Source of the DNA: Austropuccinia psidii
Lineage: Eukaryota > Basidiomycota > Pucciniomycetes > Pucciniales > Sphaerophragmiaceae
Assembly: GCA_023105745.1 (NCBI GenBank)
Contig: JALGQZ010000001.1
Coordinates: forward strand, 60,489,937 to 60,553,936
Direction of reading: 5' to 3'
Length of the DNA stretch: 64,000 nt
Both the position numbers and the translations under genes were made by a program. The notes under the pieces are model-generated. The model saw only the letters and a list, made by a program, of their open reading frames with translations, did no database searches and was not told the DNA's origin. This document shows positions 13,757 to 45,965 of the stretch, in pieces. Numbering within the stretch: the first letter of the stretch is position 1; every line of letters starts with the position of its first letter.

Positions 13757-13761
13757 GAATC

Positions 13762-15314: not shown

Positions 15315-16053
15315 TTATATTAATTATCTCATAATTTATTTTCATTCTATTCATTCATTCTTTATAATTTCATTCATTTATTTCATCAAGGTTATTATTC
15401 TTTAATTTTTATTAATTTAATGATTTATTGTCACTTCTCAATTTTCTCTCATGCATCCTTAATTCTTCAAAATTGAAAGCTGACCCATTTTTATTTTGTT
15501 TTTCTCTTTAAATCTTAAGTTAAATCATCAATCCTTTTCAAATCTTAATCCAATCTTATTTTAATTTTTAATTGATTTTCCAATTGGTCATCAAGATTAT
15601 TCAGACATGTTTTTCATATCAAGATTCAAGTTGATTTATTCTTCAAGAATTTGAATTTAAGGAAGAACTCACTTGATTTTTCATTTGATTGACTCATTTA
15701 ACATAAAATTTATTTTGACTTCAATAAATTTGATTGACCTGAAGATTATTGATTTTGCTGATTTTTTCACATCACAAATTTTGACCTAAATTGATTTGCC
15801 TCTAGATTTCATTGTTTGATTGATTTTTCTGCAAGATTTTGATTTTATTTAATTGAAATATTTATTGATTGACTACAAGACTTCATTTGATATTTTATTG
15901 ATTGATGTACCTGAGGATTTGCATTTGATTAACTGACTTTTCCTTGAGATTTGATTTTAATTTTGACTTCAAGCTTTATTTTTGAATTGCCTCAAGTTCT
16001 CATATACAAATTTTGATTTTTATTAATTTTATTTACATTCTTATCCTGAAATC
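15315..16053 (+). other. Element D leader
   Basis: AT-rich leader. The first bases after the LTR, TTATATTAATTA, are shared with F (60485 on) and lack the TGG of a tRNA PBS. Its second half is a loose array of TTGATTGA and CAAGATTT words. It contains no gene; unlike F, it has acquired ATGs. Confidence 0.65.
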
Positions 16054-16708
16054 ATGCCTTTTCAACACTCACCTCCTGCAAGGCAGACCAGATCTCAAGC
16101 CAGAGCGCAAGCTGTTTGTACTCCAACTCCAACAGCACCTCTTGACAGCACCCCAGCAGTTCCTCAACTCAGTGCCCAATTAGACAGAGGACCAAATATG
16201 GAAGGAGCAGCACCATCCAGGAAGGAATCTAAAGGAACAGCTTCAAGGTTTCTGGTGAAGATATTCAAGAGGAGGAGGAGAATTCTGTGGAATAGGAAGA
16301 GTCTGATGGTACTGAAGGAGTCCCTGCTCTTGTGGGGGAATCCCAAGGTACTGGCCATCATGCAGCAGATGACTCAAATTATGGCCAATATTAAATAAGC
16401 TTCATCTTCTGAATCATCAATACCACCAGCCTTCAAGACTCCATCTATGAAGGCACTAGAATGCTTTGATGGGACTCAGCCCCTCAAAGTTAGAAGATTC
16501 ATTCAGTCTTGTCAATTAATTTCTTATAATTATCCAAAACGTTTCTCTCAAGACAGAAAGAAAGCTCTTTATTCCACTTCATTTCTTACTTGCAGGGATG
16601 CAAAATGGATTAGTCATTACCTTTCCAATATCACCAATCAAGACCCAAGCTACCTTCTCATTTCTTGGAAATTATTTTAATCTCAAGTCTTTACTTTATT
16701 TGGGGACC

Positions 16709-23656: not shown

Positions 23657-25227
23657 ACTCACAACCATGTGTAATCACCCCTCCAATGGGTGTTTATGTA
23701 AATTCTATCCTGACCCCAATTTATGGCCAATTGCAGCTCTTTTGGTATTTTATGGCCTTTGTGCCACATCACCCTTCTTCTGGCCATCCATGGCCTCAGT
23801 CCATACCCTGCTATCATTTGCCTTTTTGGCCAATTCCCCACCTCACCAATACCGTTTTTTTGGGCCTGGGGGTCTATTTGGTGATCCAGAGGCTTCTGCC
23901 CCACCGAGCCATCATTAAGAACCTTGCCCCAACTCCTTTGAATATGGGGTCTAAGGCCCAAATGGCCTTTTTGAGCTATTGAGGCCCCTTGTGGCCTCTA
24001 TGGCCCATGGTCCATAGGACCCTTAGGCCCCTTTTGGCCTGAATCCAATGAGGCCAAAAGGGGCCAAGGGAGTAGTTCACCATCCCCCAAGGCCAGTTGT
24101 GTCCCAAACCACAAGTGGGCCCACCTGAGCCAAATTTGGCCCCAATTCTCAACATTCCCAAAATGGCCAAAAGAGCCCCAGGACCCAGATTGGCCTCTGG
24201 CAACCACCAGAGGCCACCTGCTCAGGTTCCAAAAGGCTTCCCCTCCATTCAAGGGAAGACCTCTCCTTCATCAAAGGATCCAGGCATGGTGCATATATGG
24301 TATAATATACAATTATGCACCATTTTTGCTCATAAATTGAATGGTGATGTTTTCATGACCTAATTATGTCTTTTCAATTTTAGTCCCCAAAAACATCACC
24401 CATTTTGAAGGAAGACTTTTCAGTCATTCAATATTGCAATCCCTGGCGTCTACCAGAAGAGCATTTGAGAACCCCAACCACCTGGACCTGCAGGGGTTGG
24501 GTTATTATTTCTTTTCAGGATTATTCCAAGGGTAATTTTAAGAGTTTATAAATCATTCAATCAGTTTTCAAGGCATCAAGTACTTCAGTATTCCTTGGAC
24601 AACTCAATTGGTCAATACAGGCTGTATTCAAGCAACCTGTATGGCCTTGGCCCTTTTGGGCCAACTCCTATTCTACTGTGGGAATTTAGTAACACAGTTC
24701 AACTCTCAATATGGCCATATTGTTTTTGACCCAAAGCAGTCAATACAGCCAGGTGATCAACCCCCCAGTATCAGTCTTCACCTTTTCACATATACTGGCC
24801 GCCTTTTCTTCCTTGGGGACCTTTTCCCCATTTAATTGATATATTAAGCTTATTTTTATCCTTATTTTATTTTTATTTATTAAAGTAAATACTGATAATC
24901 TTAAGTAGGTCATTTTCACCTTTTCTTCTTTTCCTGTCATTGGATATTGGTGGTCATATCCTTTACTAATTCCATTGTTCTTTCTGGAAGGTTGAAACAG
25001 TGAACTGAAGATTAATTTGGTTGGCTCTTTGGCCTTTGGCTTTCTATTTATTATCTTTGGCCATTGGCTTCCTTTTCTTTTACCTTTGGCATATATTTCC
25101 TTAATCTTATTCTTCTTTAAAGAAATATTATCCTTGTTATTTCTTTATCCTTTTGGAGCCCTCCAAGTGAGTTCTTGATTCCTGATTTCCAGGCCACTCT
25201 TGTCTTTCAACAAGAGCCCCTGTGACA
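23657..25227 (+). mobile_element. 3' LTR of element D
   Basis: 1571 bp, from ACTCACAACCATG to CCCCTGTGACA, then TSD GAATC. It is clearly homologous to 13762-15314 along its length but with many differences, in line with an old insertion. Confidence 0.85.
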
Positions 25228-25232
25228 GAATC

Positions 25233-25551
25233 AACATCAACAAATCTCAGAACCAAGAAAGAAAAATATTTTCCATCCAAGATTTTATTTTCTTTTAGCT
25301 CTTTTATTTATTTAGATTATATTTATCTTTATTCTCTAGTGGGTCTCTCCCCACCACATAAATTTTCATTTTCAAATTTTATGTTTTATTCAACTAGAAG
25401 CAAAATCCAATGCCAAAAGAAAACCCTGGGGTCATCCAAATTTCCAAATATTCCATCATTCTTGTTCATAATAATTATATTCCCTCAACTGCCTATCCAA
25501 AGTACCTTGCCAAGGTGCTTGGGAGAGCACCATTTCCAAGGTGGTGGGGAA
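25233..25551 (+). other. Element D' 3' UTR and polypurine tract
   Basis: An AT-rich 3' UTR that continues the D' pol remnant left of D (for example GCAAAATCCAATGCCAAAAG resembles the D 3' UTR near 23463). It ends in the purine tract AAGGTGGTGGGGAA before the LTR. Confidence 0.6.
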
Positions 25552-26888
25552 TGTCACAAACCACATCAACAAAGTCAGAATCATTGATTTTAACCCTTAT
25601 GGAAAGAGTAGTTATGCAATTTGTGGAGGAATTTCCACTATCAACTCAAATTCAAGTTCTTAAACCAATGTGTTAGGCCACTTTGGAGGCATAACAGCCT
25701 CAGGACCCTTGTTTCATTATTCCATTTTTCATCCTGGAACTTCATGGGGCCTCAAATGGCTTTTAAGTCCTTCTTCCCATGTTTTATGGTCTATGGGCCC
25801 TGGGCCATATCTAAAACTCCATAGGGGGTTCAAACCCTAAATCAACCCCCATGGCCAAAATTAGAAATTAACCAAAGGTTTGAAAAAATTTTCTATATGG
25901 CTTATGGAGACCCTCAGTAACCTCCAGGCCAGAAACTTGCCAAGGGGCCTTGGACCAGTTCCCCCCATTATCAGCTCATTATCATAATACCCAAATTGAT
26001 CATTTTTTACTTAGTTTTAGCTTTGCATACCACACCCCCTCAAATGAGGATTATATTATCATTATTCATATTTCAAGGTAAATTGTCTCCTGATACTCAA
26101 TTCCTTTCATTCTTCAAGTCAAAATTACTCAAAGAAACTATTATAAGAGGACATGTTCTAGCACAAAGAGCTATGGTCATTCAAGACCAGCCTCTTCCCT
26201 TCATCAGGCAGCATCCTAAATCATACAGTAGTCCCCCAAGGGAATACCATTCATGTATCTTCAAGGAATTGCGCCAAGGATGATAAAAGACAAGTTCTAA
26301 AATACATACTTCAGTAACAGAGACCTGGATGGCATTGACCCTTTTGGTCAAATCAATTCAAATTTTGTTGGTATTTCAATACACCCAGTTCATTTCCCAA
26401 CATGGCCAAGGTATATTTTTCAAAGCATAGTCAATAAAGCTGGCTTCCAGGCTTCAAGGATCAAGGTGTAAACATTTCCCATATATTGGCCCCTATATCA
26501 CCCCCTGGGGTCTTCTTCCCCAGTTGATTAATCTGATATATTTATTTTTATTCTTCATTTTCTCTGATATTTTGAAAAGTGAATACTGATAATCTTAAGT
26601 CAGGGATTTTCACCCTTTTCTCACCTGTAATTTGATCTTGTTGTTCATATCCTTATTTTTTCCTTTATTCTTTAGGGAAAGATTGAAACAGTGAGATTAG
26701 GATTTCCTTGGGTGGCTGTTTGGCCCTTGTCCATATATTTCTATTTGATATCTTTATTCTGAATCATTTGTAAGGAGATATATTTCATATCTTTTATTTA
26801 TTCAGTTCTTTGTTGTCAATCTAAGTTAGTTTTTGAACACTGACTTCCAGCCCACTCTTTCTCTCCCCAGGAGCACCTTTGAGAGTCA
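25552..26888 (+). mobile_element. 3' LTR of element D'
   Basis: 1337 bp, TGTCACAAACCACATC to about GAGCACCTTTGAGAGTCA. The right end has drifted from the family end CCCTGTGACA, so the boundary is good to a few bases. A further 148 bp without features separates it from element B. Confidence 0.7.
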
Positions 26889-28499: not shown

Positions 28500-29900
28500 A
28501 ACTGTTCAGTTCTCCTAGAGGCCCTAAATCTCCTTAGATTAAGGTTCCCATCTGGTATGGCATCTTCTGCCAACCAGTTGTCTTTGTCAGCTGTCTGGTT
28601 CTTGAATCTGACTAAGTACTATCTCTGATCCTTACCATTAAGTCACATCTTCCTTGCCTTGATCACTTTCTTCACTGGTCCAGGGGAACCCTCCACTCCT
28701 ACTATTTCTGGTGGTGTGGGGTTCTTCTTCCTGGAGGGTAATTTATCCTCCTCTTTCTGGAAGTATGGCTTGACTAAGCTAACTGGAAAGACTGGGTGTT
28801 TTCTAGAAAATGTTTCTGTGAGTTTGACTTCCACTTCATTTTTCCCTATCAATTTAATGATAGTGAATGGCCCTATAAATGAGTCTCTCATTTTCTTAGG
28901 TCCTTTGAGATTATTAAAGTTCAGTGTAGACATTAACACTTGGCCCCTTCTTTAAAGTCAGGTTCCATGTGTGATTTATCCCACCTCTGCTTATTATATT
29001 CTTTGGCCTCAGCTATGCATTTGGCAGCTGTGTAACAAGCCCTCTTCCACATTTTGTGGAAAAATTTGGCTGTGGGGTGGATGGCCAGAAGATTTTTCTT
29101 CAAGTGATCCACAGGAAATAGGGGATTCCACCCTTTCTGTACCAGTGCAGGTGTTTTTCCTGTGGTTAAGTGCTTACTTTTATTATATGCCAGCTGGACA
29201 GCTGGTAGAAGGGTAACCCAATCATGGGTGTATCCTTCATGGTCCTTGTATTCCATGCCATAGGCACAGAATCTTCTAAGGATGTCCTCCATTGTCTGGA
29301 TCATCCTTTCAGCTAATCCATCTGTTTGTGATGGTAAGCTGTGTAAAATGCAAGCTTTGTGCCAAGCACGTCATACAAGTTTATCAAAACTTCAGATGTG
29401 AACTTTGGGTCCCTATCACTAACAATGATTTTTGGGACTCCACAGCTAGATATGATTTTATTCCAAAATAACAGAGGAGTATCCATGGCTGTGTCCTCCT
29501 TGTGGCATGGTAGGCACTTCATACTCTTTCTGAACCTATCAACTATGATCAAGCAAGAATTGAAGTTTTATTTGCCTCCTGGGACAAGTCCTGTAACCCA
29601 GTCCATGTTGATGGTTTCCCATGGGTGCTTTGGGTTCTTCTATGTGTTGCAGTAACCCATACTTTTTGCCATGTTTTCTATTTTCCTTTTGGCATCTTTC
29701 ACAAGTGTTGATGTATTCACTCAACTCTTGTTGTCATGTGGGCCACCAAGCTGTGCTTGCTACCCTCCCTGTGGTTCTGCCTTCACTCATGTTTACCATA
29801 TAGGGGCAGTCATGGCATTCTTGTGGGATCAAGGATATATGGTCCCTGTCTACTATGGTGAGTGCACTAGTGTGCTTCTCTCTATGGTAGAGCAGGCCAT
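28500..29900 (-). pseudogene. Integrase of element B, with C-terminal chromo-like part
   Basis: Element order is right to left. Zinc-region remnant (EYINTCERCQKENRK near 29720-29670). Catalytic core ([15 protein letters not shown] at 29552, [14 protein letters not shown], then MIQTMEDILRRFCAYG at 29304, where the frame has shifted). C-terminal part (STLNFNNLKGPKKMRDSF at 28935). At least three frames are used, with stops between, so it is inactive. It is parallel to C 40301-41628. Confidence 0.8.
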
Positions 29901-31493
29901 CTATAAGGAAAATCTGTTTTCCTTATAGTTCCTCAACCGGGGTTCCTCTAACTGGGATTTCAATTCTGGGCTCCTGTACTTGTGTTGAAGGAGTTGCAAC
30001 AATATGCCACACTGTTTGTGTTTGGAATATGTCTTCATCACTGCATTGAAGAATTTATTATGCAGTTCTGAGGAGCTTATTCCCAATATGGGAGTTTCTG
30101 TTCCTTCTGAATCAGTGTTTCCACTGTCTGGGGTACCACTTTCTGGTGCCCATTCAGAAAATCTGAAGCTTTTCCTCCTATCTATCTCCATGAAATGGAT
30201 AGGGATCTTGGCTGCTACTTCAGGGTCATAAGCTGGGTTACTTTTGAGATTTTGCAGTGGCCATCTGATGAGCCCATCTGCATTGGTATGAATTTCAACT
30301 TCATTTTATATGATGGTCATATTTCCTCTATACTCTTGGATGGCTATTTGCCACCTCAACATGTGTCTATTGGTATTCTTCATGTTTGGTAAAGACTTCA
30401 AGGCTGTGAAGTCTGTGTAGACTTCAAATACTGGACCCTCAAAATACTAATGGAGTTTCTCCAGAGCCCAGACTAAGCATAGACATTCAGTCTGGGTGGC
30501 CCCATACCTGGCTTCTGAATCTTTTAGATGCCTAGAGATGTAACAAATTACTCCCTCCCTTGGTTCACCATCCACAATTTGTCTTTGGTGAAGGGCTTCT
30601 CCTAAGCCTTGGCTACATGCTGCATCTATATATAACTTGAATGGTAGTTCAAAGTCAGGCAAGATGAGCACAGGTGCATTTGTGAGTTCATATTTGATAC
30701 TCTCATATGCATCCCTCCTTTCCTTGGTAATTTCAAAAACTAAATCTTTTGAACATAACTTGTATAAACTAGTAGTTATGTGGGCAAAACGTTTGATTTG
30801 GTTTCTATAGTAGCTAGCAAACCCAAGGAAAGATTGCATCTCTTTGATGTTTCTTGGTACTGGCTTTTGCAGTACTGCTGCTACTTTGTTCTGGTCAATT
30901 GCCAGACTAAGACCTGAGACATTATTTCCTAGAGCTAGTAGCTCTTGTTGGCCAATATTGCACTTTTTAAGTGAAATTTTCAGATTTATGGGTGTGCATT
31001 TACTTAGCACTCTGTCTATAAACTGCACATGGTCTTATCATGTCTCTGAGTATGTAATGATGTCATCAATATATACTACCATCCAACCTTCCAATATTTA
31101 TTTTTGAAATATGTTGTCCATCATCCTCTGGAAGTGGGCTGGTGCATTCTTAATGCCAAATTGCATCCTGGTGTACTCATATATGCCCATATGACATATG
31201 ATTCTGAGTAATTTCATGGAGTTTGGTTTAACTCCATTGTGGTTGAAACCTTTCATACAGTCCATTTTGGTTATGTATTTGGCTTTTGCCAGTTTGTCTA
31301 AGGCATGAGGTATCTTGGGTAGAGGGTACCTGTCAGCTTTTGTGTAGTTTTTCAGAGCTCTGAAATCTCCACACAGCCTAGACTTGCCATCATGCCAGGT
31401 GATCAGAACAGGAGTGTTAATTTCCACTATTTCATTGTGTCCAATCTTTCTGATTAGATCCATTTCCAGGAGTTCATTGATATGTTTTTCAAT
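29901..31493 (-). pseudogene. Reverse transcriptase and RNase H of element B
   Basis: RT from about 31463 down (MDLIRKIGHNEIVEINTPV; SRLCGDFRALKNYTK; FGIKNAPAHFQRMMD). The YIDD block near 31060 lies in a gap between open segments. The connection and RNase H follow ([33 protein letters not shown]; 31028-30447). A linker continues to 29901. Most pieces share one frame but are separated by stops at 31494, 31098, 30447 and 29901. Confidence 0.8.
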
Positions 31494-32165
31494 TTACTTC
31501 CTAGTTTCCACACTTTCTGTGCAAGGAGGTCTCCTGACCATGGGTGGATAATGTCTTCCCACATCCAGATATAGCTCTATATCATGACCTCTAATTTTTC
31601 TTAGGGGTTCTTCACCAATGGCAAATTCTGTTTTGTTCTTTCTCAGCATCTTCAATAAACTTAGTTTCTGTTTACTGGTGAGGGTAGTGCTAAACTGGCC
31701 CTCTCTGAATTCATTCAGTAGTTCTTCCGGTGGATCCTGGGCAGATATTTGGTATATATCAAGTGAAAATTTCTTTTCCTTGTTGGTACCAATGGTAATG
31801 TGCCTGTTTTTACTATTGTAAATATCAATACCATACATCCTCTGGTAATCTGTCCCCAGTAGGAACCCTTGGATTTGGGAATCATCAAGCACTACAAACT
31901 CTGGGTTGAGTCTGATATTACCCTTTCTATGGGGTATAATGATCTCTTTGATAATTGTCCCAATGGAAGTCATCTTCCCTGCAGCACTTTTGAAGTTCTT
32001 TGCCTTGGTTTTCAAGAGCTGTTTTTCCCGATTTGGGAAGTGGTTTTCCAGATAATTTATGGCCACTATGGAGAGGTGTGCCTCACTGTCAATGATCAAT
32101 GGGGTTTGATCATTGTCAATGCAAACAATCATTTTTGTGTACCCCCATGTATGTATGCCATTCCT
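31494..32165 (-). pseudogene. Protease region of element B
   Basis: A 212-codon open stretch with the protease fold segments DNDQTPLIIDSEAHLSIVA and FLLGTDYQRMYGIDIYNSKN. The active-site triplet reads D-S-E rather than D-S-G, so the protease would be dead. It overlaps gag by 4 nt in another frame, showing an indel since pol and gag share a frame in A. It ends at TAA 31494-31496. Confidence 0.78.
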
Positions 32166-33098
32166 TTGGTTGGTGTGACCAGGAATGTTTGTGCATCCTG
32201 TGTATGTTTGGACAAGTTTTTATTTGCAGTATCCTGTGGCATGTCTGCTTCCAACTGTATGTCATGAATTTCTAGTGAGGTTTCCTCTTTGTATTCCACT
32301 AGTAATTCTTCTCTTGCCTCTTGGCCATCATCAGATTGTTCTCTGATGGCATCTCCCATAGAGTCTGAGTCACAATCCTCTGTTGGGGATTCCTCCTCTG
32401 GGACTTTATCAATGGCATAGACTTTTTCCTTTGCCTTTGGACAGTTGTTGGAATAGTGGTCTGTTGAAGCACAATTTTGACCAAAATTTTTCTTCTTTAC
32501 CACTTCTTCCACCCTTTCTCTGGGTTTGTCTTTAAACTCCACCCTGAAAGGTTGTTTCTCTTTGAAACCACTGCTATTATATAGGGTTTATTTCCCTATA
32601 TTAGTTCTTTTCCTTACATCTTTTAAGGTATTTGCAATGTCATCTAGAGTGCAATTGTGGTTGCATCTACATTTCAATGCATGCTCTAGTTCTCCTGGCA
32701 GTTGTGTCAGGAGTTTGTGATTCCTCATTTGGATGTTCATTTGAGGATCAATGGCTTTAGGTCTTTTAGACTGTCTGAGATACCACTCATATGGATATTT
32801 GTCCACAGAGTATTTGTCATTTTCAAATGACATGGTTTTTTTCCATATCCAAGTACCATTACTGTACTTCTGGATGATCTGACCCTTCCACCATGGCCAG
32901 TTTCTTCTGACATGGATTTCTTTCATTTCTGTGTACCATATACTAGCATGACCTTTGAATGCTGTATTTAGTCTAGCAGTAATCCAGTAATCTGGTATGC
33001 TTGGTACATCAATGAAGAGTCCATCAATATAATCTATGAGCTCCATATGATCATACTCTGCAGCTCCAGAGAATTTGGGCCAGCTTGAGGCCTCGGGA
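32129..33098 (-). pseudogene. gag of element B, 3' half (capsid and zinc knuckle)
   Basis: Capsid 33098-32588 (WPKFSGAAEYDHMELIDY; GELEHALKCRCNHNC), then a stop and a shifted frame with the nucleocapsid 32542-32129. The knuckle reads GQNCASTDHYSNNC, where A has CHNCGSTDHYANNC: the first Cys is lost. An acidic Glu/Asp/Ser tail follows. Element C cut the gene at 33103; the 5' half resumes at 43778. Confidence 0.85.
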
Positions 33099-33103
33099 AT
33101 CTG

Positions 33104-35111
33104 TGTGAGCCTTTGAGATATGACCACATACCCAACAAGGTCACAAAAAGGACTCAGAATAATTATACCTTTCATATAATTATATTAAAATTACTTAGAA
33201 TAATTATACATTAAAAATAATTACTTAAATATACAAAAAATACCATAAATTGGTACAAAATTTGGTTTAACTTAAAAACCAATGAATCAACATGTAAATT
33301 AAATTATACCATTGGATTCCCCATGGAAAAATACACATATACCATTTTTATGGCATATCTGTAAAGTCAATATTTAATGAATTATAAGGTATAATACCTT
33401 ATAAAAACCATAAAACCTTATTTATCTCCAGAACTAATGAAACAACATGTGAAATAAATTGGACCAGTGGATTCCTCACGAAAGTCCACACATAAAACAA
33501 TTAATAAGCTAATTTCCAAAGTTAATACTTAAGGAATTAACCTGAATATATGCACTTTTTTGGTCAATGCATATATTCAAGGATCATAGCTAATATCTCC
33601 TAAACTATACATGATAGAATGATGAACCAAAAATAAAGTTACCACGTAATTACTTTAAGAACACAGATATGAACTTTATTTTACAAATTATAAACAAGGT
33701 TAAAACCTATGATGAAATATTAATAAAAATCAACAGAGCTGTTGACCACTTTGTTGTGAAAGTGGTCCAAACTTAAAAAAAAGTATACAGTTGGAATATA
33801 CTAGCTCATTCGTGAAGAATGATGTAATTTTTATTATTAAATTCAGGGTATAACCCCCTGAAATCAAGGTTTGAAGTTTAAAATATTAAATTTTGACACA
33901 AAAGATGAGTTACAAGAAAAATCATCAAAATTAGAGTTTGGATGATGTAATGAAAAGCTCTTGGCAGAATAATAAGGTTATTCCAGGCTATCAGAATTCA
34001 CTCTCTGAATTGCTGTAGCGTGTAAATCTTAAAAGGTATTGAAGATCAAAGTTTGAGCTTAAATTGAGCAGTTATGATCACCTACTGTAACCTTAAATCA
34101 AGTTTAACAGTCATATGAGTGATACGATTGGTGAATACTATTAGTTTATGATTAAAACTAATAAAATCCACGAAATTTGGGGTTCTGCCAAGCCTCTGAT
34201 GTCATCAAACTTAGAGTTATAGTGATAACTCTAAATAATGGTGTAATAATGATGTGATATGGTTTGATCATGATGTAATCACCTTCAAGCTTTAAAATAT
34301 CGATTGATTCCAGTGGATATGATCAGTACACGTCTACTAGAAGCCTGTTGGACTCTAGGAGGGAGGTATTTACTATAAATAGAGTTCTTTTTACTCTATT
34401 TTTCCCCTCAGACGCATCAAAAACATTAAATCAATTAAATCAAAGGTAATTTCTTTATTCTTTATATATAAAAACATTATATTATTAAAGACCAAAGACT
34501 ACCTTGCTATAATCATCTATTTTGACGTGATTAAATCATTTATTTAATTGTTTTTGTTAAAAATCTCTCTAAAACTCATTTCCACGTAAAAATCCAGAAT
34601 AATTTGTAATTCTCTTTATTTTTATTGTAAATACAATTTGAAAAAGTTGTATTTATATTTTTTGGCGTAAAATATTTCAAAATTATTATATTAAGTGTTA
34701 AAAGTAGGTTATTTTCTCTATTATTACTCTCTTGATAATTCTTTAATTAATATAAATAGTATTTATATTAATTCATAACTTTAATATTAGTAATATTATT
34801 GTTATTAATTGTTTTTTATTAATAAAAAACAATTTTTTACGCCTTTATTATTTGTTGGTAACAATAATAAAGAACTTTTTAAATATATTAATTATTTTAT
34901 ATCAATATATTGATTTATTATTTTATATTTTCATAATATAAATTATATTATTATATTTATTTAATAATATAATTATTTTACGCCATAATAGTAATAATTG
35001 TTTATTATTATTATATTTTTAATCTCATTTATTCAATTCATAAGGACATTCAGAGTACAATAAGTAATAAATTAGTAATTTTTACTTATTGTTTCATAGT
35101 CAAACCTTACA
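33104..35111 (+). mobile_element. 5' LTR of element C
   Basis: 2008 bp, TGTGAGCCTTTGAG to CAAACCTTACA. A TATA box lies at 34374-34382. From about 34400 to the end no ATG occurs in any frame. AT content is extreme, especially 34600-35100. Confidence 0.93.
34374..34382 (+). promoter_or_regulatory. TATA box, element C 5' LTR
   Basis: TATAAATAG, the best TATA match in the LTR, repeated at 43017-43025 in the 3' LTR. Transcription start is expected 25-35 bp downstream, near the CCCCTCAGACGC stretch (about 34404-34415). Confidence 0.6.
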
Positions 35112-35130
35112 TTTGGGGGACTCGCCGTGA
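35112..35130 (+). other. Primer binding site, element C
   Basis: TTTGGGGGACTCGCCGTGA directly after the LTR, resembling the family 1 site. TGG begins at 35114. I could not assign the tRNA. Confidence 0.65.
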
Positions 35131-35603
35131 TATTTACTTAAAAGACCTTTAAAAAGATTCTAATTGGGTTTATCCAATAATAAATTATATTTATAATCAT
35201 AAAATTATATAATAATTTTATATTTTATTGATTTGAAAAGCTATTGAGGCATTTGGAAAGCAATTGTACTGTCTTACACGTGGTTTTTCACATCCTTAGA
35301 CTTGCAAGAACTTTCTTTGAGTGACTCTAGTGATTAAGAGAGATATTTTATAAATTAAAAATAATTTTATTATAATTTAATTTTATAAGAATCATATTCA
35401 TTTTTTATTTTATTCTTTAAAAATAAAAATATTAAAAAATATTAAAAACCAATAAAAAAGTTATTTTCATTCATTTTTATTCATTTCTTTATTTATTTCA
35501 ATTTTTCAAAGATATAAAAGCAATTTCTACGTGGAAAATTGCCATATCTTGCTAAAAAATAACACTTCTTATAAAAAGACTTATATTTATTTGTCTTTTT
35601 TAG
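35131..35603 (+). other. Element C leader, ATG-free, ending in a splice acceptor
   Basis: AT-rich leader with no ATG on the sense strand. It ends in a pyrimidine-rich stretch and TTTTTTAG (acceptor at 35602-35603) before ORF0 exon 1. A candidate donor AAAG|GTAATT lies at 34445/34446 in the LTR. I see no gene. Confidence 0.55.
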
Positions 35604-36523
35604 TGTTTGAAGATAACCCAACAGAAGACAACCAAGCTACTGTTGAGAGATTAGTGGAAGAAACTTGTCAAAGTTCTGCAACACCATTTATTGCTAAAAG
35701 AAAGAAAGCTAAGAAATTAGACTTTCCAGGACCCACCATTCAAGACTCTGAAGGTGAGCACCTCTTTTATAATTGCCATAAAAAGAATTTTATTCTAAAA
35801 TACTTTTATTTTTTCTTATTCCTTAAACTATGACTACCAGAAGAGGTTCCCAATACTCCATCCAATCAGATGGAGCTGGACTCAGGGGTAGAACTGATCC
35901 CTCAAAAGGGAAAAGAAAGGGCAATATCCCCAGTGGGACAGAATCCACACAAGGAAGTGCCTTATCCCAAAGGCAAGTCCCAGAAATGCCCATGATATCT
36001 GATCCTGAATTGGAACTAAGTATGAGTAACTCAAACAGGTACAAATCACATTCAGAGGGCTCAAATAGACATCTACATGAGCCAGTACAAGCAGTATTGC
36101 ACAGTGTACAAGGACAAAGATTGGGAAATGTTTCCTCAAATACACCAAGGAGTGATGAACTCCTGGCACATCCTGAAAAAGTTCCTCAAAGAGGAGGAGA
36201 TAGTGAAATACTCCAATGGATGGAATCCACTGTCATCCAAACCTCAAATCAAAAAAATCAAGGACTACCATGCCAAAAAGAGGGAGGCAACCAAGGAAGA
36301 AGCCCCAGTAGCTTCTACCAGCAAGCCCCAAGCCAACCCACTTCCCCAAGAAGGGAAGAAGAACAAAAAAAAGCATTGGAGGAAACCATATTCCCCAAGC
36401 TACAGAATCCCAAGAATCCAAAAGGATGCCATGGACAATGTTTTCAACATGGCCAGAACCTTGATGGAATTCAAGGACAAGGAAGAGAAAAGAATGAGAC
36501 AACCTCATTTCCCAAAGAAATAA
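35604..36523 (+). CDS. ORF0 of element C (spliced, overlaps gag)
   Basis: Proposed exons: 35604-35753, 35841-35972 and 36039-36523. With one base from an upstream exon this gives 256 codons including the stop. Exon 1 is acidic then basic (DNPTEDNQATVERL, KRKKAKKLDF). The last exon opens TNHIQRAQIDIYMSQYK and holds KDKDWEMFPQIHQG and SNGWNP, aligning with ORF0 of A and B. The first 87-nt intron (GTGAGC...CCAG) contains the gag ATG. A second, 66-nt intron is a GC-AG candidate and is needed to avoid stops at 35993, 36017 and 36023. The start is uncertain: after splicing the first ATG in frame is 35870. No known domain; possibly an accessory protein from a spliced RNA. Confidence 0.6.
35754..35840 (+). 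other. ORF0 intron containing the gag ATG, element C
   Basis: 87 nt, donor AAG|GTGAGC, acceptor CTACCAG, phase 1. The gag ATG is at 35830-35832, 8 nt before the end of the intron. The equivalents in A and B are 68 nt. No clean CTRAY branch motif is obvious. Predicted only. Confidence 0.65.
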
Positions 36524-37962
36524 CCTTGTCCAAAGATGTTGTACATACTTTAACAGAAATTAAAAATAGTATATTACCTCTAAAAGAAATTAAAGATAGT
36601 TTATTATCACTACAAGAAATAAATAACAATTTATCTTCTTTTACAAAAATTGTTGTGCAAAACAAGAAAGAAATTGACAACATTAAGTTTATTGTTGAAA
36701 ATAATAAACCAAAGAATTTAATTGACAATACTCAAAAATTAATACAAGGACAACAAGAATTGTATAAATACATAAAAGATATCAAAGACAAGACTTTGAC
36801 AATCAATTATGATGTGAGTATTGACAATCTTACAGAAAAATTAAATAAATTAAGTATTTCTGTAGAAAAATTTGAAGAAAAGACTTCATCACACCAAAAA
36901 TTACTTTTGGACCATGTGGAAAAAAGTGATGAAGCAAGAATGCATCTGAAAGATGATATTCAGAGTGAAATAAGGCTTATCACTGAAAAAATGGATAAAA
37001 TTAATGAGGCTAATTTAAATATGCCAAAGTTATCAACACCATTTTCTCATATAAGAAGCCCTGTTAAAACAAAAGAGGAATTGTCAAATCCTTTCATAAC
37101 AGACTTGAGTCACCAAGATAATAACCAAGTCTTAATGAAGGAAGCACCTCAATTGAAAGAATGGCCAAGATTCACAGGAGAAGGTGAATATGACCACATG
37201 TCATTTATTAAAACAATTGACATGTTACAAGAAGACTATGCCATACCAGATGAATTAATCACTACAAGATTACATTCACTGTTTGAGAAATCTGCAAAAA
37301 GATGGTATTATGGCATAAGACAAACAAATGGTAAAAATACCTGGTCTTGGTGGAAACAAGAAATAATCACCAAGTGGGCAAATGATGCCTGGAGGTATAA
37401 GATAGAAAATGCATTTGAAAACTCTTTCTTTGACCCAGAGAAAGACAAACCTTTAACTTGGCTCTTGAAACAAGTTGAAAGGCTTAATTCACTGTACCCA
37501 GAAATGTCACAAGAGATGGTGCACATGAAAATACTTAAAAAATGTGGAGGGGAACTAGAACATGCCCTAAGAAGCAGGTGTATAGAACCATGCTCCACAG
37601 AAGAGTATATAAATGCACTAGAAGATATAGTGACAAGAACAAAAATTGGCAGGACTTGGAAAAAATTGGACATTAAAAGCCCAAATAAACCATTTATCAA
37701 AAAAGATAAATCAAAAGAATCCTTTAAGCCCAATACATCCAACAATAATGAGCAAAGAAAATGCCATAAATGTGGAGGTATTGGACACTTAGCCAACAAT
37801 TGCCTTAAAAAAGCAAAGATTAATGAAATTGTGGAAACAGAAAGCCACAATGACAAAGAAGAGGAATCTGACTCTGAAAAAGAGACAGAAGAGTCAGAAA
37901 GCTCTGAAAGTGATGAAATCAATATAATTAATGCACAAATTAATAATATTGATATAACTTAA
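35830..37962 (+). CDS. gag: Gag polyprotein of element C (intact, 710 aa)
   Basis: ATG 35830 is the first ATG after the predicted transcription start, has A at -3 and is preceded by an in-frame TAA. Residues 1-230 are low-complexity (dual-coding with ORF0). Residues about 235-400 are a Lys/Glu/Ile-rich coiled-coil region. About 440-620 is the capsid (WPRFTGEGEYDHMSF, GGELEHALRSRC) and 650-664 a CCHC knuckle (CHKCGGIGHLANNC). An acidic Glu/Ser tail ends it. It stops at TAA 37960 in the same frame as pol, so Gag-Pol would need readthrough or that stop may be a recent mutation. It forms the virus-like particle and binds RNA. Confidence 0.93.
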   Translation: MTTRRGSQYSIQSDGAGLRGRTDPSKGKRKGNIPSGTESTQGSALSQRQVPEMPMISDPELELSMSNSNRYKSHSEGSNRHLHEPVQAVLHSVQGQRLGNVSSNTPRSDELLAHPEKVPQRGGDSEILQWMESTVIQTSNQKNQGLPCQKEGGNQGRSPSSFYQQAPSQPTSPRREEEQKKALEETIFPKLQNPKNPKGCHGQCFQHGQNLDGIQGQGREKNETTSFPKEITLSKDVVHTLTEIKNSILPLKEIKDSLLSLQEINNNLSSFTKIVVQNKKEIDNIKFIVENNKPKNLIDNTQKLIQGQQELYKYIKDIKDKTLTINYDVSIDNLTEKLNKLSISVEKFEEKTSSHQKLLLDHVEKSDEARMHLKDDIQSEIRLITEKMDKINEANLNMPKLSTPFSHIRSPVKTKEELSNPFITDLSHQDNNQVLMKEAPQLKEWPRFTGEGEYDHMSFIKTIDMLQEDYAIPDELITTRLHSLFEKSAKRWYYGIRQTNGKNTWSWWKQEIITKWANDAWRYKIENAFENSFFDPEKDKPLTWLLKQVERLNSLYPEMSQEMVHMKILKKCGGELEHALRSRCIEPCSTEEYINALEDIVTRTKIGRTWKKLDIKSPNKPFIKKDKSKESFKPNTSNNNEQRKCHKCGGIGHLANNCLKKAKINEIVETESHNDKEEESDSEKETEESESSESDEINIINAQINNIDIT

Positions 37963-40900
37963 GAAGTACTGGATGTTAATTCAAACTTACCACAAGTTGG
38001 AACATCTGACACAAACCTGACAAACATACAAGATGCCAAAATGTATAGGACCAAACCTGCAAGAGGAATGGGATATACAGCTGGAAAATCAAGTATAAGT
38101 ATTGTTATGGTTGATAACCAAGAAGGAAAAGTTAACTTGGATACAGGAGCATATTGCACTTGTGTTGGCAAAAGTTATTTAAAATCCATTGTCCCAAACT
38201 GGCAAGAAAACCTTATGCCAATACAAGGTGTCAAATTTAGTAGTGCAAGTGAAAGCATGAAGCCCCTTGGAATAATTGATTTAACACTAATTTTTCCTCA
38301 TCCCTCACAATGTGTCAGAATTAAAGTAGAGTTTGTAGTAATGGACAACTGTACTAGTAATCATTTCATACTTGGGAATGACTACTTATCAATCTATGGT
38401 ATAGATATCTCCAACCAAAAAGATAGATATTTTACCATAGGAGATAACAAAAGACAAAAGTTTGGCTTCTTAAGTAACAAAAAACAAATCACAGTTATTA
38501 AGAAGGAAGAAAAAATTCCAGAAAAGGAACTTTTTATATCTGAACAACTTAAAGAGGCAGAATTCAATCAAGAATTAACAGAAAAATTGAAAGAAAAATT
38601 GACTGACCTCTTATTTAAGTATAAAAATTCCTTTGCAACTGACAAAGAGCCACTAGGTGCCATAATTGGACATGAAGTGGATATAATTCTTAATGTAGAA
38701 AAGCCTTACCCACCTTTATTAAGAAGACCTGCTTATCAAGCCGGTCCAAGAGCTAGAGAAGCCTTAGAGGTGCACATTAAAGAATTGATGGACCTTGGAG
38801 TATTGAGAAAGGTTGGACATAATGAACAAGTAGAAGTTACTACACCTGTCATTATAACTTGGCATAATGGAAAATCAAGGATGGTAGGAGACTTCAGAGC
38901 CCTGAATACCTATACCATTCCAGACAGATATCCAATACCCAGAATCCATGAGACATTGACCCAATTGTCACAAGCTAAGTTCATCACAGCTATGGATGCT
39001 CTTAAGGGTTTTCATCAAAATGTCTTAACAGACAATGCCAAGAAACTACTAAGAATAAAATTCCATTGTGGAATTTTTGAATACTTAAGAATGCCATTTG
39101 GGATAAAAAATGCACCTTCCCATTATCAAAGAATGATGAATACCATATTTCCTGAAGAATTATCAGAAGGATGGTTAATTATCTATATTGATGATATCAT
39201 AGTTTGCTCAGAAACTTGGGAAAATCACCTTACAAGACTAGAAAGGGTACTACAAAAAATAGTCCAAGTAAATATGAAAATTTCCTTGAAAAAATGTCAT
39301 TTTGCATATAGTGAATTAAAAGCACTAGGACATGTTGTATCTGGCCTTAGTCTCGGCATAGACAAAAATAAAGTGGCAGCAGTACTACTTAAACCAATGC
39401 CTCAAACCAAAAAAGAAATGCAATCATTTCTAGGATTTGCTGGTTACTATAGACAGCATATAAAGGACTTTGCAAAGATTTCTAAATCCTTGTATAAGCT
39501 ATGTGACCAACAAACAGTCTATGAGATGACAGAATAAAGAGTCAAGGCATATGAAGAATTGAAAAATTCCTTAACAAATGCCCCATTTCTTCTAATGCCA
39601 GATTGGAAACTACCCTTCAAACTGTACATTGATGCTTGTGGAGAAGGACTAGGTGCTGCACTTCACCAAACACAAATTATCAATGATAAACCAGTGGAAG
39701 GACCAATTTGTTTCATTTCAAGGCAAATAAAGCCAACAGAAGCAAGGTATGGAGAAAGCCAAATGGAATGCTTATGCCTAGTGTGGGCTTTAGAAAAACT
39801 GCATTATTATTTGGATGGCACAGTATTTGATGTAATCACAGACTGTAATGCTGTGAAATCACTATTAAATATGAAGACTCCAAATAGACATATTCTGAGA
39901 TGGCAAATTGCTATCGAAGAATATAGAGGAAATATGACTATTGTTCATAAATCTGGAAATATTCATAAAAATGCAGATGGTCTCAGCAGATGGGCTCTAG
40001 CAAATACCCCTGACAATCCAGCATGGGTACCACAAGAAGAACACCATATAGAAGGAATATGTGTTACAGACATTGGCACAGAATTCTTTAACCAAGTTAA
40101 AGAAAGCTATAAGACAGACAAAAATTTCCATATCTTAAGCCAACTTCTAATGAAAGACTGCAAAGACCCATCACTTTCATCAAAACTAGATGAAATATGG
40201 AAAAAGGCATATGATTAAGGAAGATTCCACCTCCTTGATGGAATCCTTTACCATAGAACAAAACACACATGTGTTATGGCCTTAACAGATAGAACACTAA
40301 TAAACACTATTTTACATGAGTGTCATGATAGTGTTGCATCTGGACATCTCTCAGAAGACAGGACACTAGAGAGGGTGAAAACCTGCTCTTGGTGGCCAAA
40401 TTGGAAGAAAGATGTTGCAGAGTAGTGCCAAACCTGTGACAGATGTCAAAAAGCCAACAGAGCCACAGGAAAGAAATTTGGAATGATGATCCAAATCCAA
40501 GAACCAAAATCCCCATGGGAAATAGTTCATATGGATTGGGTAACAGCTTTACCTCCAGGAGGAGACAGGAGTTATAATGCATGCCTAGTGTTAGTTGACA
40601 GGTACAGTAAAACTCCCATGTTCTTACCATGTAATAAAGATGACACAGCTATGGATACAGCCATAATGACATGGAATAAAGTCATTAGCCACACAGGCTT
40701 ATTCCAAAATATTATAAGTGACAGAGACCCAAATTTCACTTCAGCATTATGGACAAATCTCCATAACTTGTTTGGGACAAAGTTATCATTCTCAGCAGCT
40801 TATCATCCTCAAACTGATGGTTTAGCAGAAAGAATGATACAGACCCTAGAGGATATAATCAGAAGATTCTGTGCTTATGGGCTAGAATTCAAAGATTCTG

Positions 40901-41628
40901 ATGGTTTTACCCATGATTGGTGTACACTAATACCAGCACTTGAACTGGCATATAAGACATCAATCCATTCTTCTACTGGCAAAACACCAGCAATGCTAGA
41001 GAAAGGTTGGAATCCAAGACTTCCTTATGATACCCTCAAAAAGGACTTAGTGGACATACATCCAACAGCAAGCAGTTTTAAGATAATGCTTGACAAAGCA
41101 AGACACCATGCAAACAGATGTATGCAAGACTCTTTTAAATATGCAAAAGAAAGATGGGATAAAAGTCATAAGCCACCTGATTTCAAAATAGGAGACTTGG
41201 TCTTAGTATCAACCCTTAATTTCAATAACATAAAAGGCCCAAAGATATTGAAAGATTCCTTTGCAGGACCATTTATGATAAAAGCACTTCATGGACCCAA
41301 TGCTGTGCAATTAGAACTCACAGGTGAACTAATGAACAAACACCCAACTTTCCCTGTAAGTCTGGTAAAACCTTACAGTTCAAGTGAAAAGGAGTTATTT
41401 CCACTAAGAAATAAACCCCCACTTGAGATTCCCCCCTTGGAAGAAGGAGAGGAAAAGAAAATAGTAAAAGTCCTTAAAGAAAGAAGGACAAGAAACAAAA
41501 AAGAAAGGGAATACCTTGTAAGGTATAGAAATTCAACTCAAGAAGATGAATGGCTACTTGAGAAAGATATAACAAATGCTGATAAACTACTAAGAAGTTT
41601 CAGACATGAAAGAAAGCCTGCAAAATAG
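37963..41628 (+). pseudogene. pol: pol of element C: PR-RT-RH-INT, three nonsense codons
   Basis: One frame, continuous with gag. Protease: VNLDTGAYC, with the catalytic Asp codon at 38140. [34 protein letters not shown] and YIDD at 39184-39195. RNase [19 protein letters not shown] from about 39616. Integrase: zinc residues HECHD near 40315 and CQTCDRCQ near 40426, then core VHMDWVTALPPG, IISDRDPNFTSAL and [12 protein letters not shown]. The C-terminal part ends in a chromo-like LVRYRNSTQEDEW near 41516. Stops: TAA 39535, TAA 40216, TAG 40423. No frameshift seen. B has Lys at the first site, so that stop is a single substitution. Confidence 0.92.
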
Positions 41629-41734
41629 AAAAGTTAAGCGTTATTGAGCTTCAAGACTAACAAAGTCTATTGAAGAGGTAGGACAGTGGATGATACCCTA
41701 ATCACACATATCAGATTGTGGTACAATCTTTTTT

Positions 41735-41746
41735 GGTGGTAGGGAA
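41735..41746 (+). other. Polypurine tract, element C
   Basis: GGTGGTAGGGAA immediately before the 3' LTR, preceded by a T-run as is common for plus-strand primers. Confidence 0.7.
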
Positions 41747-43772
41747 TGTGAGCCTTTGAGATATGACCACATACCCAATAAGATCACCAAAAAGACTCAG
41801 AAGAATTATACCTTTAATATAATTATATTTAAATTACTTATAATAATTATACATTAAAAATAATTACTTAAATATACAAAAAATACCATAAATTGGTACA
41901 AAAATTGGTTTAGCTTAAAAACCAATGAATCAACATGTAAATTAAATTGTACCATTGGATTCCCCATGGAAAAATACACATATACCATTTTCATGGCATA
42001 TCTGTAAAGTCAATATTTAATGAATTATAAGGTATAATACCTTATAAAAACCATAAAACCTTATTTATCTCCAGAACTAATGAAACAACATGTGAAATAG
42101 ATTGTACCAGTGGATTCCCCACGAAAGTCCACACATAAAACAATTAATAAGCTAATTTCCAAAGTTAATACTTAAGGAATTAACCTGAATATATGCACTT
42201 TTTTGGTCAACGCATATATTCAAGGATCATAGCTAATATCTTCTAAACTATAAATGATAGAATGATGAACCAAAAATAAAGTTACCACGTAATTACTTTA
42301 AGAACACAGATATGAACTTTATTTTACAAATTATAAACAAGGTTAAAACCTATGATGAAATATTAATAAAAATCAACAGAGCTGTTGACCACTTTGTTGT
42401 GAAAGTGGTCCAAACTTAAAAAAAAGTATACAGTTGGAATCTACTAGCTCATTTGTGAAGAATGATGTAATTTTTATTATTAAATTTAGGGTATAACCCC
42501 CTGAAATCAAGGTTTGAAGTTTAAAATATTAAATTTCAACACAAAAGATGAGTTACAAGAAAAATCATCAAAATTAGAGTTTGGATGATGTAATGAAAAG
42601 CTCTTGGCAGAATAATAAGGTTATTCCAGGCTATCAGAATTCACTCTCTGAATTGCTGTAGCGTGTAAATCTTAAAAGGTATTGAAGATCAAAGTTTGAG
42701 CTTAAATTGAGCAGTTATGATCACCTACTGTAACCTTAAATTAAGTTTAACAGTCATATGAGTGATAAGATTGGTGAATACTATTAGTTTATGATTAAAA
42801 CTAATAAAATCCACGAAATTTGGGGTTCTGCCAAGCCTCTGATGTCATCAAACTTAGAGTTATAGTGATAACTCTAAATAATGGTGTAATAATGATGTAA
42901 TATGGTTTGATCATGATGTAATCACCCTCAAACCTTAAAATATTGATCAATTCCAGTGGATATGATCAGTACACGTCTACTAGAAGCCTGTTGGACTCTA
43001 GGGGGGAGGTATTTACTATAAATAGAGCTCTTTTTACTCTATTTTTCCCCTCAGACGCATCAAAAACATTAAATCAATTAAATCAAAGGTAATTTCTTTA
43101 TTCTTTATATATAAAAGTATTATATTATTAAAGACCAAAGACCACCTTGCTATAATCATCTATTTTGACGTGATTAAATCATTTATTTAATTGTTTTTGT
43201 TAAAAATAACTCTAAAACTCATTTCCACGTAAAAATCCAGAATAATCTGTAATTTTCTTTATTTTTATTGTAAATACAATTTGAAAAAGTTGTATTTATA
43301 TTTTTTGGCGTAAAATATTTAAAAATTATTATATTAAGTGTTAAAAGTAGGTTATTTTCTCTTATTATAATAATTTCTCTATTATTACTCTCTTAATAAT
43401 TCTTTAATTAATATAAATAGTATTTATATTAATTCATAACTTTAATATTAGTAATATTATTGTTATTAATTGTTTTTTATTAATAAAAAACAATTCTTTA
43501 AGCCTTTATTATTTGTTGGTAACAATAATAAAGAACTTTTTAAATATATTAATTATTTTATATTAATATATTTATTTATTATATTATATCTTCATAATAT
43601 AAATTATATTATTCTATTTATTTAATAATATAATTCTTTTACGCCATAATAATAGTAATTATTTATTATTATTATATTTTTAATTTTATTTATTCAATTC
43701 ATAAGGACATTCAGAGTACAATAAGTAATAAATTAGTAATTTTTACTTATTGTTTCATAGTCAAACCTTACA
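41747..43772 (+). mobile_element. 3' LTR of element C
   Basis: 2026 bp, same ends as the 5' LTR, TATA box at 43017-43025. It has an extra short direct repeat around 43363-43385 (TTATTATAATAATTTCTC) relative to the 5' LTR near 34720. Followed by TSD ATCTG and the resumed gag of B. Confidence 0.93.
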
Positions 43773-43777
43773 ATCTG

Positions 43778-45016
43778 TTTCAAGGATTCCTTTTCAGAAT
43801 AAGACATATTATCTCCATCCTGGTATTGTGATAGAGATATTGCATTATTCATCAACATGGTATCTGGTTTGATGTCATCTTGGTGATATAAAATAATCAC
43901 AACATGGCCTTGTGGTTGGGGCTTCGTATTATGGTAGACATTAAACAGTTTTTTCATGTCTTGATCCAGACAATCCCTGTCCCTTTTGCTGTGGTGTTGT
44001 TCTTCAAAGACTAGATTCAGTCTTTTCTTGGTTTCTTCAGAGGCTTTGTTCAATTGAGCATGTCCTTCTTGAAGGTTTTTAACAATTTTGTCCATGGAGG
44101 CTGTCAATATTTTCAACCTCTCATGGCTTGCTTCAAGTTCTGAAAACTGCTTTTGAGTTTGCTCAGCATATTGGGAAATTTGTAACCACAGTGCATTACT
44201 GTTTAGGTTACTTTAAGTTGTGACAACATTATGTTCAATATAAATGGGGGCAATATTTCTATTAATGGGACTACTAATTCTAGAGTTATGTACAACTAAT
44301 TCTGGTTCTTGTGCACTTCTTTAACCAAATCAAACAGCTTCTGGAAAGTTCAGTCTGACTCTCTGTTCCTTTGGCTGAAGGTGGTCTTTTTTTTGCCCTT
44401 GTATCCTTGTCTTCTCCTGGAAACTTCCTGGAATTGTGAATAAGGGTGACTCTTGGCCACTGATCTGTTGGTTTCTGAATGGTGTGAAGTCACTGGAGAG
44501 CTGATTTGGCCTGCTACTTGTGAGCCTGAAGGAATCTGAGTATGCCCTGTTTGGGTCATCTGTTCTTCTATAGCTTGTATAGTGGCTTGATTCTTCCTTA
44601 TGCTGTTTGCCCTCACATCCAGGAGTCTGGACTGCCTGGTTGGATTCCAACCTTTGGTGATTACCATAAGGTCTCTGAAGTCTATCTCTTTGAGACATAT
44701 CTTCTGGCAGCTTGCTCCAATTTCCGCCCAGTGGGCTGCCAGGTTGAACCTCTTTTTTTCCATGCTCCATTGATATAATTCTTTGAGGACTTGGTTGAGC
44801 TGAAGAACTTGATCCATATCTTTCCAGTCCTCTGGTTTGAGGTTTCTGTTGAGTTGAAAAGTGAATGGCAGAGTGGGTATAATTTCCCTCAGTGTCTTGC
44901 AATCCACAACTGTGTCCAAGGTGTACTCTTCCAGGTCTTCTGGTTCTGGACAAGCCTTCTCTGTCCTCTGGTTGATTCCTTTGGACGCCAAGGTTTCTGA
45001 AGTGGACAGGTGACAT
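43778..45016 (-). pseudogene. gag of element B, 5' half
   Basis: Frame from ATG 45016-45014 (MSPVHFRNLG), inside the ORF0 intron. It is open for 228 codons to 44330, then broken by stops to 44116, then open again (SMDKIVKNLQEGHAQLN, coiled-coil-like) to the C insertion. The frame matches the capsid part at 33098. The open 5' stretch runs antiphase to ORF0 over nearly its full length. Confidence 0.82.
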
Positions 45017-45364
45017 ATCAGTGCTTGAAAGCAGTCAAAAACTTTATGTTCTTAGGGTATTTACCTTTTAATGTGCCTTGTACAAATTTTTTGTCTGCTG
45101 ATTTTGAAAATTTAACTTTAGAGGTTAAAACTGGGTTAATTATGATAAACTTCCCTGTACAAGTGGTTAAGGTTTGTTTACCTTGTATTGAAGCAGAGTT
45201 TCATGGTTTTCTATTCCTCTGAGTGGAAATGGGTGTCCACGTTTTTGCTGGAATCAGGCCTTTTCTGTGCCTCTTTCCCTTTCCCTTGCTGCCCTCTGGC
45301 TCTGAGGGTGTCACTGGTGTGTTGGCCTGTGACTGGGTCTCAAGTGGTATGTAGTTTTCTTCTG
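44350..45364 (-). pseudogene. ORF0 of element B, two exons
   Basis: Exon 1 is 45364-45065 (300 nt; I read at least one stop, near 45198) and exon 2 is 44996-44350 (open). The junction is phase 1 and leads into ETLASKGINQRTEK; then EDWKDMDQVLQ and TKGWNPTRQSR. It ends FQEVSRRRQG plus a basic tail. The exon 1 acceptor is TTTAG at 45365, but the first two exon bases are CA where A and C have TG. Function unknown. Confidence 0.65.
44997..45064 (-). other. ORF0 intron carrying the gag start codon (element B)
   Basis: 68 nt, donor AAAAG|GTAAAT, branch-like CTGAT, acceptor CTTCAG. Gag ATG 45016-45014 directly follows the branch motif. It is the same size and arrangement as in A. Confidence 0.7.
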
Positions 45365-45965
45365 CTAAATAAAACAGGAAAAGAGGGATTAATTTCAGTT
45401 AAGACATGTTAAAATGCTTTTTGCACATCTAAGAATGGCCTCTGGGCTTGTATGTTACTACAATATGCCCTTGTATAATGACAGTGCAATTGAATTAACA
45501 ATTTCACATCATAAATACAGCTTACAGATTTCTGGTACACTGTTTGTATGCCAGTATTTCACAGATTAACTTGTAATTAGCAAGTATAATCTGACAAAAC
45601 TGGTATGTAAGAGGATAATTGAATTAACAATACACCCAACCACGACCCAACTGTTAGCTTTACAATAAGAGGTGCCTTTTTTTAATTAAAAAAGGACTTT
45701 ATTAATGGCTTCAAGTGTTCTTATATGTAAAACATGCCAAAAATAAGGGCTTTTGTGGTGATTAAATTATATTCAACCATGCCACAATCTGATTCCAGAA
45801 GATAAATAATGGTGGTATATGACATATACCACTGTAAATATATATATATATTTATTAAAGAATTAAACCTAAAAAGATAAAACAATTTTTCAGAATAAAG
45901 AAAATAAGAGAAAAACACACTTATAAGGTCCAAAAAGTTAAAAAAACATGGCCAGGCCCCCAAAA
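45365..45965 (-). other. Leader and PBS of element B
   Basis: About 600 bp between ORF0 and the 5' LTR. The PBS lies at 45946-45965 (TTTTGGGGGCCTGGCCATG on the minus strand). The rest is AT-rich and homologous to A 3055-3654. No gene. Confidence 0.6.

Follow-up and report, generated by a model that had tools for sequence, protein, structure and literature searches.

Introduction

How might a retrotransposon with one promoter supply, besides Gag and Pol, a further protein whose reading frame runs across the gag start codon? The question is raised by element C, a Ty3-type long terminal repeat (LTR) retrotransposon in a 64,000-nucleotide stretch of the rust fungus Austropuccinia psidii (NCBI GenBank assembly GCA_023105745.1, contig JALGQZ010000001.1, positions 60,489,937 to 60,553,936 of the forward strand), hereafter the window, in which all coordinates are counted. 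The original prediction for this locus placed an intron of 87 nucleotides, carrying the gag start codon, between two exons of another open reading frame (ORF0), so that retention or removal of the intron would decide between Gag and ORF0.

A splicing switch between Gag(-Pol) and ORF0 is in our view the best explanation of the sequence, and we hold it with high confidence. This interpretation, which upholds the central claim of the original prediction, is supported by genomic copies of the spliced RNA, by a leader free of ATG and by protein-level constraint on ORF0. One LTR promoter would yield one primary transcript. On the unspliced RNA, which would double as the genome, ribosomes would scan some 1.4 kb of leader, reach the gag AUG at 35830 and produce Gag(-Pol). 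Removal of intron 1 (35754-35840) would eliminate this AUG, and with the GC-AG intron 2 (35973-36038) spliced out as well, the first AUG, at 35870, would open the other frame to 36523 and yield an ORF0 protein of 195 amino acids. The relative amounts of the RNAs, as well as the translation and function of ORF0, we infer from the DNA.

Genomic Copies of the Spliced RNA

The assembly searched comprises 1.015 Gb and holds 2810 candidate places for the element C family, genome-wide counts for repeats being lower bounds here and below; the A. psidii genome is given, close to this, as just over 1 Gb (PMC8063080). A search of the whole genome with 26 letters spanning the exon 1/exon 2 junction, allowing up to three mismatches, found the exact junction in five places (no mismatch in three, one mismatch in one and two in another), while the reversed pattern, used as a control, had no genomic match. 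All five places (L061-L065) are copies of the element that have kept the leader and lack exactly the 87 bases of the predicted intron. In L062 and L063 the 66 bases of intron 2 are likewise missing, to the base; searching the whole genome with 27 letters of the intron 2 junction (up to three mismatches) yielded this pair and no further match. An alternative acceptor at 35869, taken from the gene models P0012 and P0027, was rejected, with no match at up to two mismatches and one at three.

Both element ends were checked in three of the five copies. Two LTRs and target duplications are present in L061 (AGGCT), L062 (AATTC) and L063 (ATTTT); a target duplication is not established for L064 and L065. 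Given their paired LTRs and target duplications of 5 bp, L061, L062 and L063 are, to judge by their structure, reverse transcripts of spliced RNA, and these reverse-transcribed copies show indirectly that both introns have been precisely removed in vivo. Since L061-L065 are without the gag AUG, the Gag used in making them was probably provided in trans. L061 has L063 as its sister (98.0% identity), L062 is closest to L024 (96.9%), and L064 and L065 are sisters (94.6%), so the five copies span at least three lineages by FastTree topology alone. L061 carries additional gaps at 36330-36347 and 39630-40949; in L065 an insertion lies near 37786 and nothing past 39232 matches in the stretch compared.

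Splice Signals and the ATG-Free Leader

Conservation of the signals was followed in 30 copies of element C, namely the window copy and L002-L030, which are 29 of the 39 other places scored among the 2810 candidates. In intron 1, GT and CCAG are kept in all 30 copies and AAGGTGAGC in 27, and the gag start codon lies inside this intron as originally described. The ATG at 35870, correctly predicted as the first one of RNA without intron 1 and in the ORF0 frame, is also kept in all 30. The proposal of only two ORF0 exons holds in part: their junction occurs in the five copies above, but the frame beyond it is blocked in the unspliced exon 2 region by stops at 35993 (present in 30/30 copies), 36017 and 36023, and a second intron is needed. 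This intron 2 was proposed ahead of the genomic tests, prompted by the gene model P0019 from A. psidii MF-1, and its signals are retained in nearly every copy (AAGGCAAGT in 29/30, ACAGGTA in 30/30). Donors were scored with a simple home-made matrix, applied to all GTs within 34412-36600 and to GCs from 35900 onward; averaged over the 30 copies, the GC donor at 35973 ranked first, 35754 second and 34446 third. Directly 5' of exon 1 lies TTTTTTAG, which could serve as a 3' splice site.

No ATG occurs at all between 34320, immediately upstream of the TATA-like box, and the start codon of gag. Between 34412 and 35829, shuffled sequences contain 16.5 ATGs on average and never fewer than five (2000 shuffles), and the leader is the longest ATG-free run in the window when both strands are considered. 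Because of this, unspliced RNA offers the gag AUG first, in agreement with the original prediction, and RNA minus intron 1 offers 35870 first. The 30 copies have between zero and five leader ATGs (mean 1.5; none in nine copies), and such sporadic ATGs match the decay expected after insertion. The leader also contains a hairpin at 35511-35552 (GATAT..GCAATTT..AAAATTGC..ATATC; -9.7 kcal/mol for 55 bases folded), which is kept with few changes across the nine copies compared and is a possible packaging, dimer or export signal.

Protein-Level Constraint on ORF0

Exon 3 can be read through in the +1 frame for 161 codons, whereas permuting the codons of gag puts on average 6.6 stops into this frame and leaves it open in a fraction of 0.0001 (20,000 permutations). 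Constraint was read from the differences between L064 and L065, as one subfamily, and the remaining copies. Counted by ORF0 codon position (first, second, third), these are 2, 1, 8 in exon 1 (p = 0.009), 0, 2, 1 in exon 2 and 1, 3, 17 in exon 3 (p = 1e-5), so that in exons 1 and 3 together 25 of 32 fall on third positions. The same comparison gives 10, 4, 32 by gag positions where gag stands alone, 4, 4, 3 in the leader and 16, 12, 9 in the R-U5 part of the LTR. Within the overlap, ORF0 third positions are gag first positions; of 24 differences in exons 2 and 3, 17 are silent for ORF0 (22% expected, p = 4.5e-7) and seven are silent for gag (25% expected, p = 0.38). This silent and third-position pattern shows that ORF0 is under protein-level constraint and that the gag extension over ORF0, at the depth tested, is not. 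A failure of exon 1 to be conserved in other copies had been named beforehand as evidence that would speak against the switch; exon 1 is both kept and constrained, and it appears from its sequence to be translated.

Among the 30 close copies, variants common to at least two of them lie at ORF0 third positions in 4/6 cases in exon 1, 0/1 in exon 2 and 6/8 in exon 3. The spliced ORF0 is open in 25 of the copies, as is the N-terminal part of gag. L062 as it stands has no ATG between the TATA box and the junction, can be read from exon 1 through 254 open codons and encodes 195 amino acids from its first ATG. Its product from 35870 would be basic (net charge +15, pI 9.7), while exon 1 is acidic (net -3) and contains the sequence KRKKAKK. 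ORF0 has no Pfam match, and its predicted structure is helical at low confidence (predicted local distance difference test score, pLDDT, 57). Exon 3 is matched by 808 proteins, and the 120 of these that were listed are all named as A. psidii MF-1.

Architecture of Element C

The features of the locus are collected in Table 1. The duplicated target site ATCTG borders element C at both ends. The promoter in the 5' LTR has a TATA-like box at about 34371, and transcription would begin at about 34400-34412. At the place of the candidate primer binding site, a TTTGGGGGCCTGGCC-type sequence is found in other C copies and in the relative B. Two LTRs with a target-site duplication, and pol domains in the order RVT_1, RT_RNaseH, then rve and SH3_Tf2-1 (Pfam), place the element in Ty3/gypsy (Metaviridae). 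The window copy has decayed, with in-frame stops at 37960, 39535, 40216 and 40423, the last three of which disrupt pol; the gag stop at 37960 is unique to it among the forms listed (29 of the 30 copies, two of them poorly aligned there). Of 58 gag relatives found, 57 come from A. psidii MF-1.

Table 1. Position and character of the features described in the window.
Feature	Position	Strand	Remarks
Element C	33104-43772	+	Ty3-type LTR retrotransposon with two 2.0-kb LTRs
5' LTR of element C	33104..35111	+	TG...CA ends; 96.3% identity to 3' LTR
Leader without ATG	34320..35829	+	Scanning by ribosomes presumed
Candidate primer binding site	35112..35130	+	Adjoins inner end of 5' LTR
ORF0 exon 1	35604..35753	+	150 nucleotides, no ATG; encodes KRKKAKK
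Intron 1	35754..35840	+	GT-AG, 87 nucleotides, AAG/GTGAGC...CCAG/AAG; contains gag start codon
gag start codon	35830..35832	+	ATG in 30/30 copies
gag frame	35830..37962	+	CCHC knuckle, score slightly under Pfam cut-off
ORF0 exon 2	35841..35972	+	AUG 35870 is first of spliced RNA; overlaps gag in another frame
Intron 2	35973..36038	+	GC-AG, 66 nucleotides; contains three ORF0-frame stops; also codes part of Gag
ORF0 exon 3	36039..36523	+	Ends with stop; overlaps gag
pol, in gag frame	37963..41625	+	Reverse transcriptase, RNase H, integrase
3' LTR of element C	41747..43772	+	Paired by identity with 5' LTR
Element A	701-3161	-	Related to B; genome has 6958 candidate places
Element B	28511-33103 and 43773-45471	-	Older Ty3 element, split by C at 33103/43773

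Long open frames also occur elsewhere in the window. The other overlapping frames (14247-14926 and 59510-60257) lie in repeat DNA separate from gag and match nothing in Pfam, and the repeat DNA at 13500-16400, 24000-26000 and 58800-61300 contains open frames of up to about 250 codons, without a Pfam match where scanned. An overlapping open frame is thus by itself weak evidence in this genome.

Relatives A and B

The gags of elements A and B are 34-37% identical to that of C in the part compared. Both relatives carry an alternative frame over the N-terminus of gag (76% identical between A and B), a gag ATG shortly ahead of CAG, and an upstream open exon that follows a pyrimidine tract and AG and opens with CA in B but, like that of C, with TG in A. 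Counted by ORF0 codon position, the differences between A and B are 6, 6, 15 in exon 1 (p = 0.014) and 19, 23, 35 in the overlap (p = 0.018). In 30 copies of A (the window copy and L032-L060), the ORF0 frame has 0-7 stops (none in 13 copies), the gag frame 0-3 (none in eight) and the third frame 7-14. In most A copies listed, three AAG/GTAAA-type donors stand ahead of the gag ATG.

Homology between the ORF0 sequences of C and A/B was not significant by hhalign (E = 0.15), and the real score was reached by 216 of 500 shuffles for A and by 55 of 500 for B; a second hhalign comparison gave E = 0.26 with an alignment that long gag rows had impaired. The layout alone is therefore counted as common to these elements.

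Points Against the Switch and the Start of ORF0

Several observations weigh against the switch as outlined. Two of the spliced-RNA copies are damaged as decayed copies are, L064 by a 14-base gap in exon 1 and L063 by a stop early in exon 3. In the 30 close C copies, the clade-consistent changes are too few for a test of constraint. In the A copies such changes are few as well and without third-position excess, the shared variants have no clear codon signal (30, 35, 36 in the overlap; 8, 10, 11 in exon 1), and a direct splice junction has no genomic match in that family. Moreover, three of the five copies without intron 1 retain intron 2, and hence RNA lacking intron 1 only, with a peptide of 41 amino acids from AUG 35870, also exists. 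This peptide is encoded by L061 and L065, and also by L064; in both L061 and L065 the next ATG after it belongs to the gag frame, and a shortened Gag might possibly arise by reinitiation on such RNA.

A further difficulty is that exon 1 is constrained although it has no ATG, which a start at AUG 35870 does not explain. A longer form of ORF0 with another start is likely for this reason, and AUG 35870 may not be the sole start. We propose that initiation upstream or at a non-AUG codon, with exon 1 translated, would give an ORF0 of about 255 amino acids, as against 195 from 35870. A refinement of the switch, rather than an exclusive rival, is that an additional upstream intron ends at a 3' splice site at 35603 and that the junction creates an A/TG start, the form of about 255 amino acids then being the main one and that of 195 minor; we give this a little less than an even chance. 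It would account for the constraint on exon 1, where 8 of 11 differences are at third positions, and for the TG with which exon 1 opens in C and A after a pyrimidine tract and AG; exon 1 is the exact start of three MF-1 gene models, and 34704 (AAAA/GTAGGT) is the top-scoring leader donor with a preceding A. However, the higher-scoring donor at 34446 would yield GTG instead of ATG, the relative B has CA rather than TG, and the leader is retained in all five spliced-RNA copies. Initiation could alternatively be non-AUG, at a GUG lying where the A/TG would arise. The guessed junction 34703/35604 also had no genomic match, a weak test and not a decisive one, since leader-spliced RNA would be without the primer site and should not be copied.

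Other Explanations of the Splice and of ORF0

Splicing could be real and ORF0 not a protein, the removal of the gag AUG merely tuning Gag output or representing noise. The missing Pfam match and the low-confidence fold (pLDDT 57) agree with such an explanation, which is nevertheless improbable in view of the third-position excess, the 17 of 24 changes silent in the ORF0 frame, the exon 3 frame that codon permutation so rarely leaves open (0.0001), and the 25 of 30 copies that keep the spliced ORF0 open, equal to the overlapping gag part. It is still less probable that ORF0 merely preserves the former coding frame of a host gene, decayed or captured: in favour of this, hydrophobic and aromatic residues amount to 32% in ORF0 and to 22% in the overlying part of gag, but ORF0 is constrained between subfamilies and has the same position and layout in the distant relatives A and B. 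Chance or microhomology-mediated deletion without splicing, for which a short repeat at the intron ends (allowing the gap to slide by two bases) and the thousands of decaying copies (2810 candidates) could be invoked, is the least credible explanation, given that the exact GT-AG junction recurs at five places in at least three lineages, that the sole two copies found without the exact GC-AG intron also lack intron 1, and that the shifted acceptor gave no match at up to two mismatches and one at three.

Comparison With Known Systems

Complex retroviruses encode Rev and Tat in multiply spliced mRNAs, and their unspliced RNA is both genome and Gag-Pol mRNA; retroviruses are known to choose by splicing between Gag-Pol and an accessory protein. 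Element C would resemble them by analogy in that a multiply spliced RNA encodes an accessory protein; unlike them it is a fungal Ty3 element, and the likeness drawn here is one of layout.

Such a choice is also known from Cer1 of Caenorhabditis elegans (PMC10309623), an LTR retrotransposon whose spliced mRNA encodes a protein, CERV, with an exon in its own frame and a named KRKK nuclear signal, and whose unspliced RNA serves gag-pol. Spliced RNA of element C forms in vivo, as seen indirectly through integrated intron-less copies, and its protein part in a non-gag frame is under selection. Unlike ORF0, CERV is longer (517 amino acids) and shares exons and frame with Gag over much of its length (PMC10309623), and in element C, unlike Cer1, the splice removes the gag AUG; the resemblance is drawn from the published description of CERV. 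One transcript is likewise split between two products in the plant copia elements BARE1 (barley, PMC3735527) and EVD (Arabidopsis, PMC8892269), through an alternative intron in the region of gag, and splicing there gives a Gag-only RNA. Splicing in element C instead abolishes the Gag start and would make another protein, so that no full Gag comes from the spliced RNA. The yeast elements Ty3, Tyl3 and Tyl6 have a Ty3-type gag, pol and LTRs as element C does, but the available part of their account (PMC5014426) describes no spliced accessory frame. Among the literature matches listed, none reports by title or abstract that a fungal Ty3 element has an accessory frame reached by splicing, the coverage being that of sources other than bioRxiv preprints.

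Significance for Rust Retrotransposons

What ORF0 might do can be suggested tentatively from its position, the splicing logic, its basic sequence resembling a nuclear localization signal and the precedent of CERV in Cer1. It could be a basic, nuclear RNA-binding accessory protein that aids the nuclear exit of intron-containing genomic RNA, as CERV does for Cer1; we consider this the likeliest role, though at well below even odds, with a packaging helper, a silencing suppressor or a regulator of Gag as alternatives. A wider and similarly speculative possibility is that the Ty3 elements of rusts follow an early/late programme of retroviral type, in which multiply spliced RNA (a leader intron, the GT-AG intron 1 and the GC-AG intron 2) would produce a basic nuclear ORF0 that exports intron-retaining genomic RNA, and that this programme is common to the very numerous families C and A/B filling this 1-Gb fungal genome.

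The polarity of the overlap is odd, in that the accessory frame is constrained and the N-terminal extension of the capsid gene is not, at the depth tested. At least 120 A. psidii hypothetical proteins in public databases, those listed of the 808 matches, could be labelled on this basis. With 2810 candidate places in a fungal genome of 1 Gb, the element C family is numerous, and its accessory protein may therefore bear on the inflation of rust genomes.
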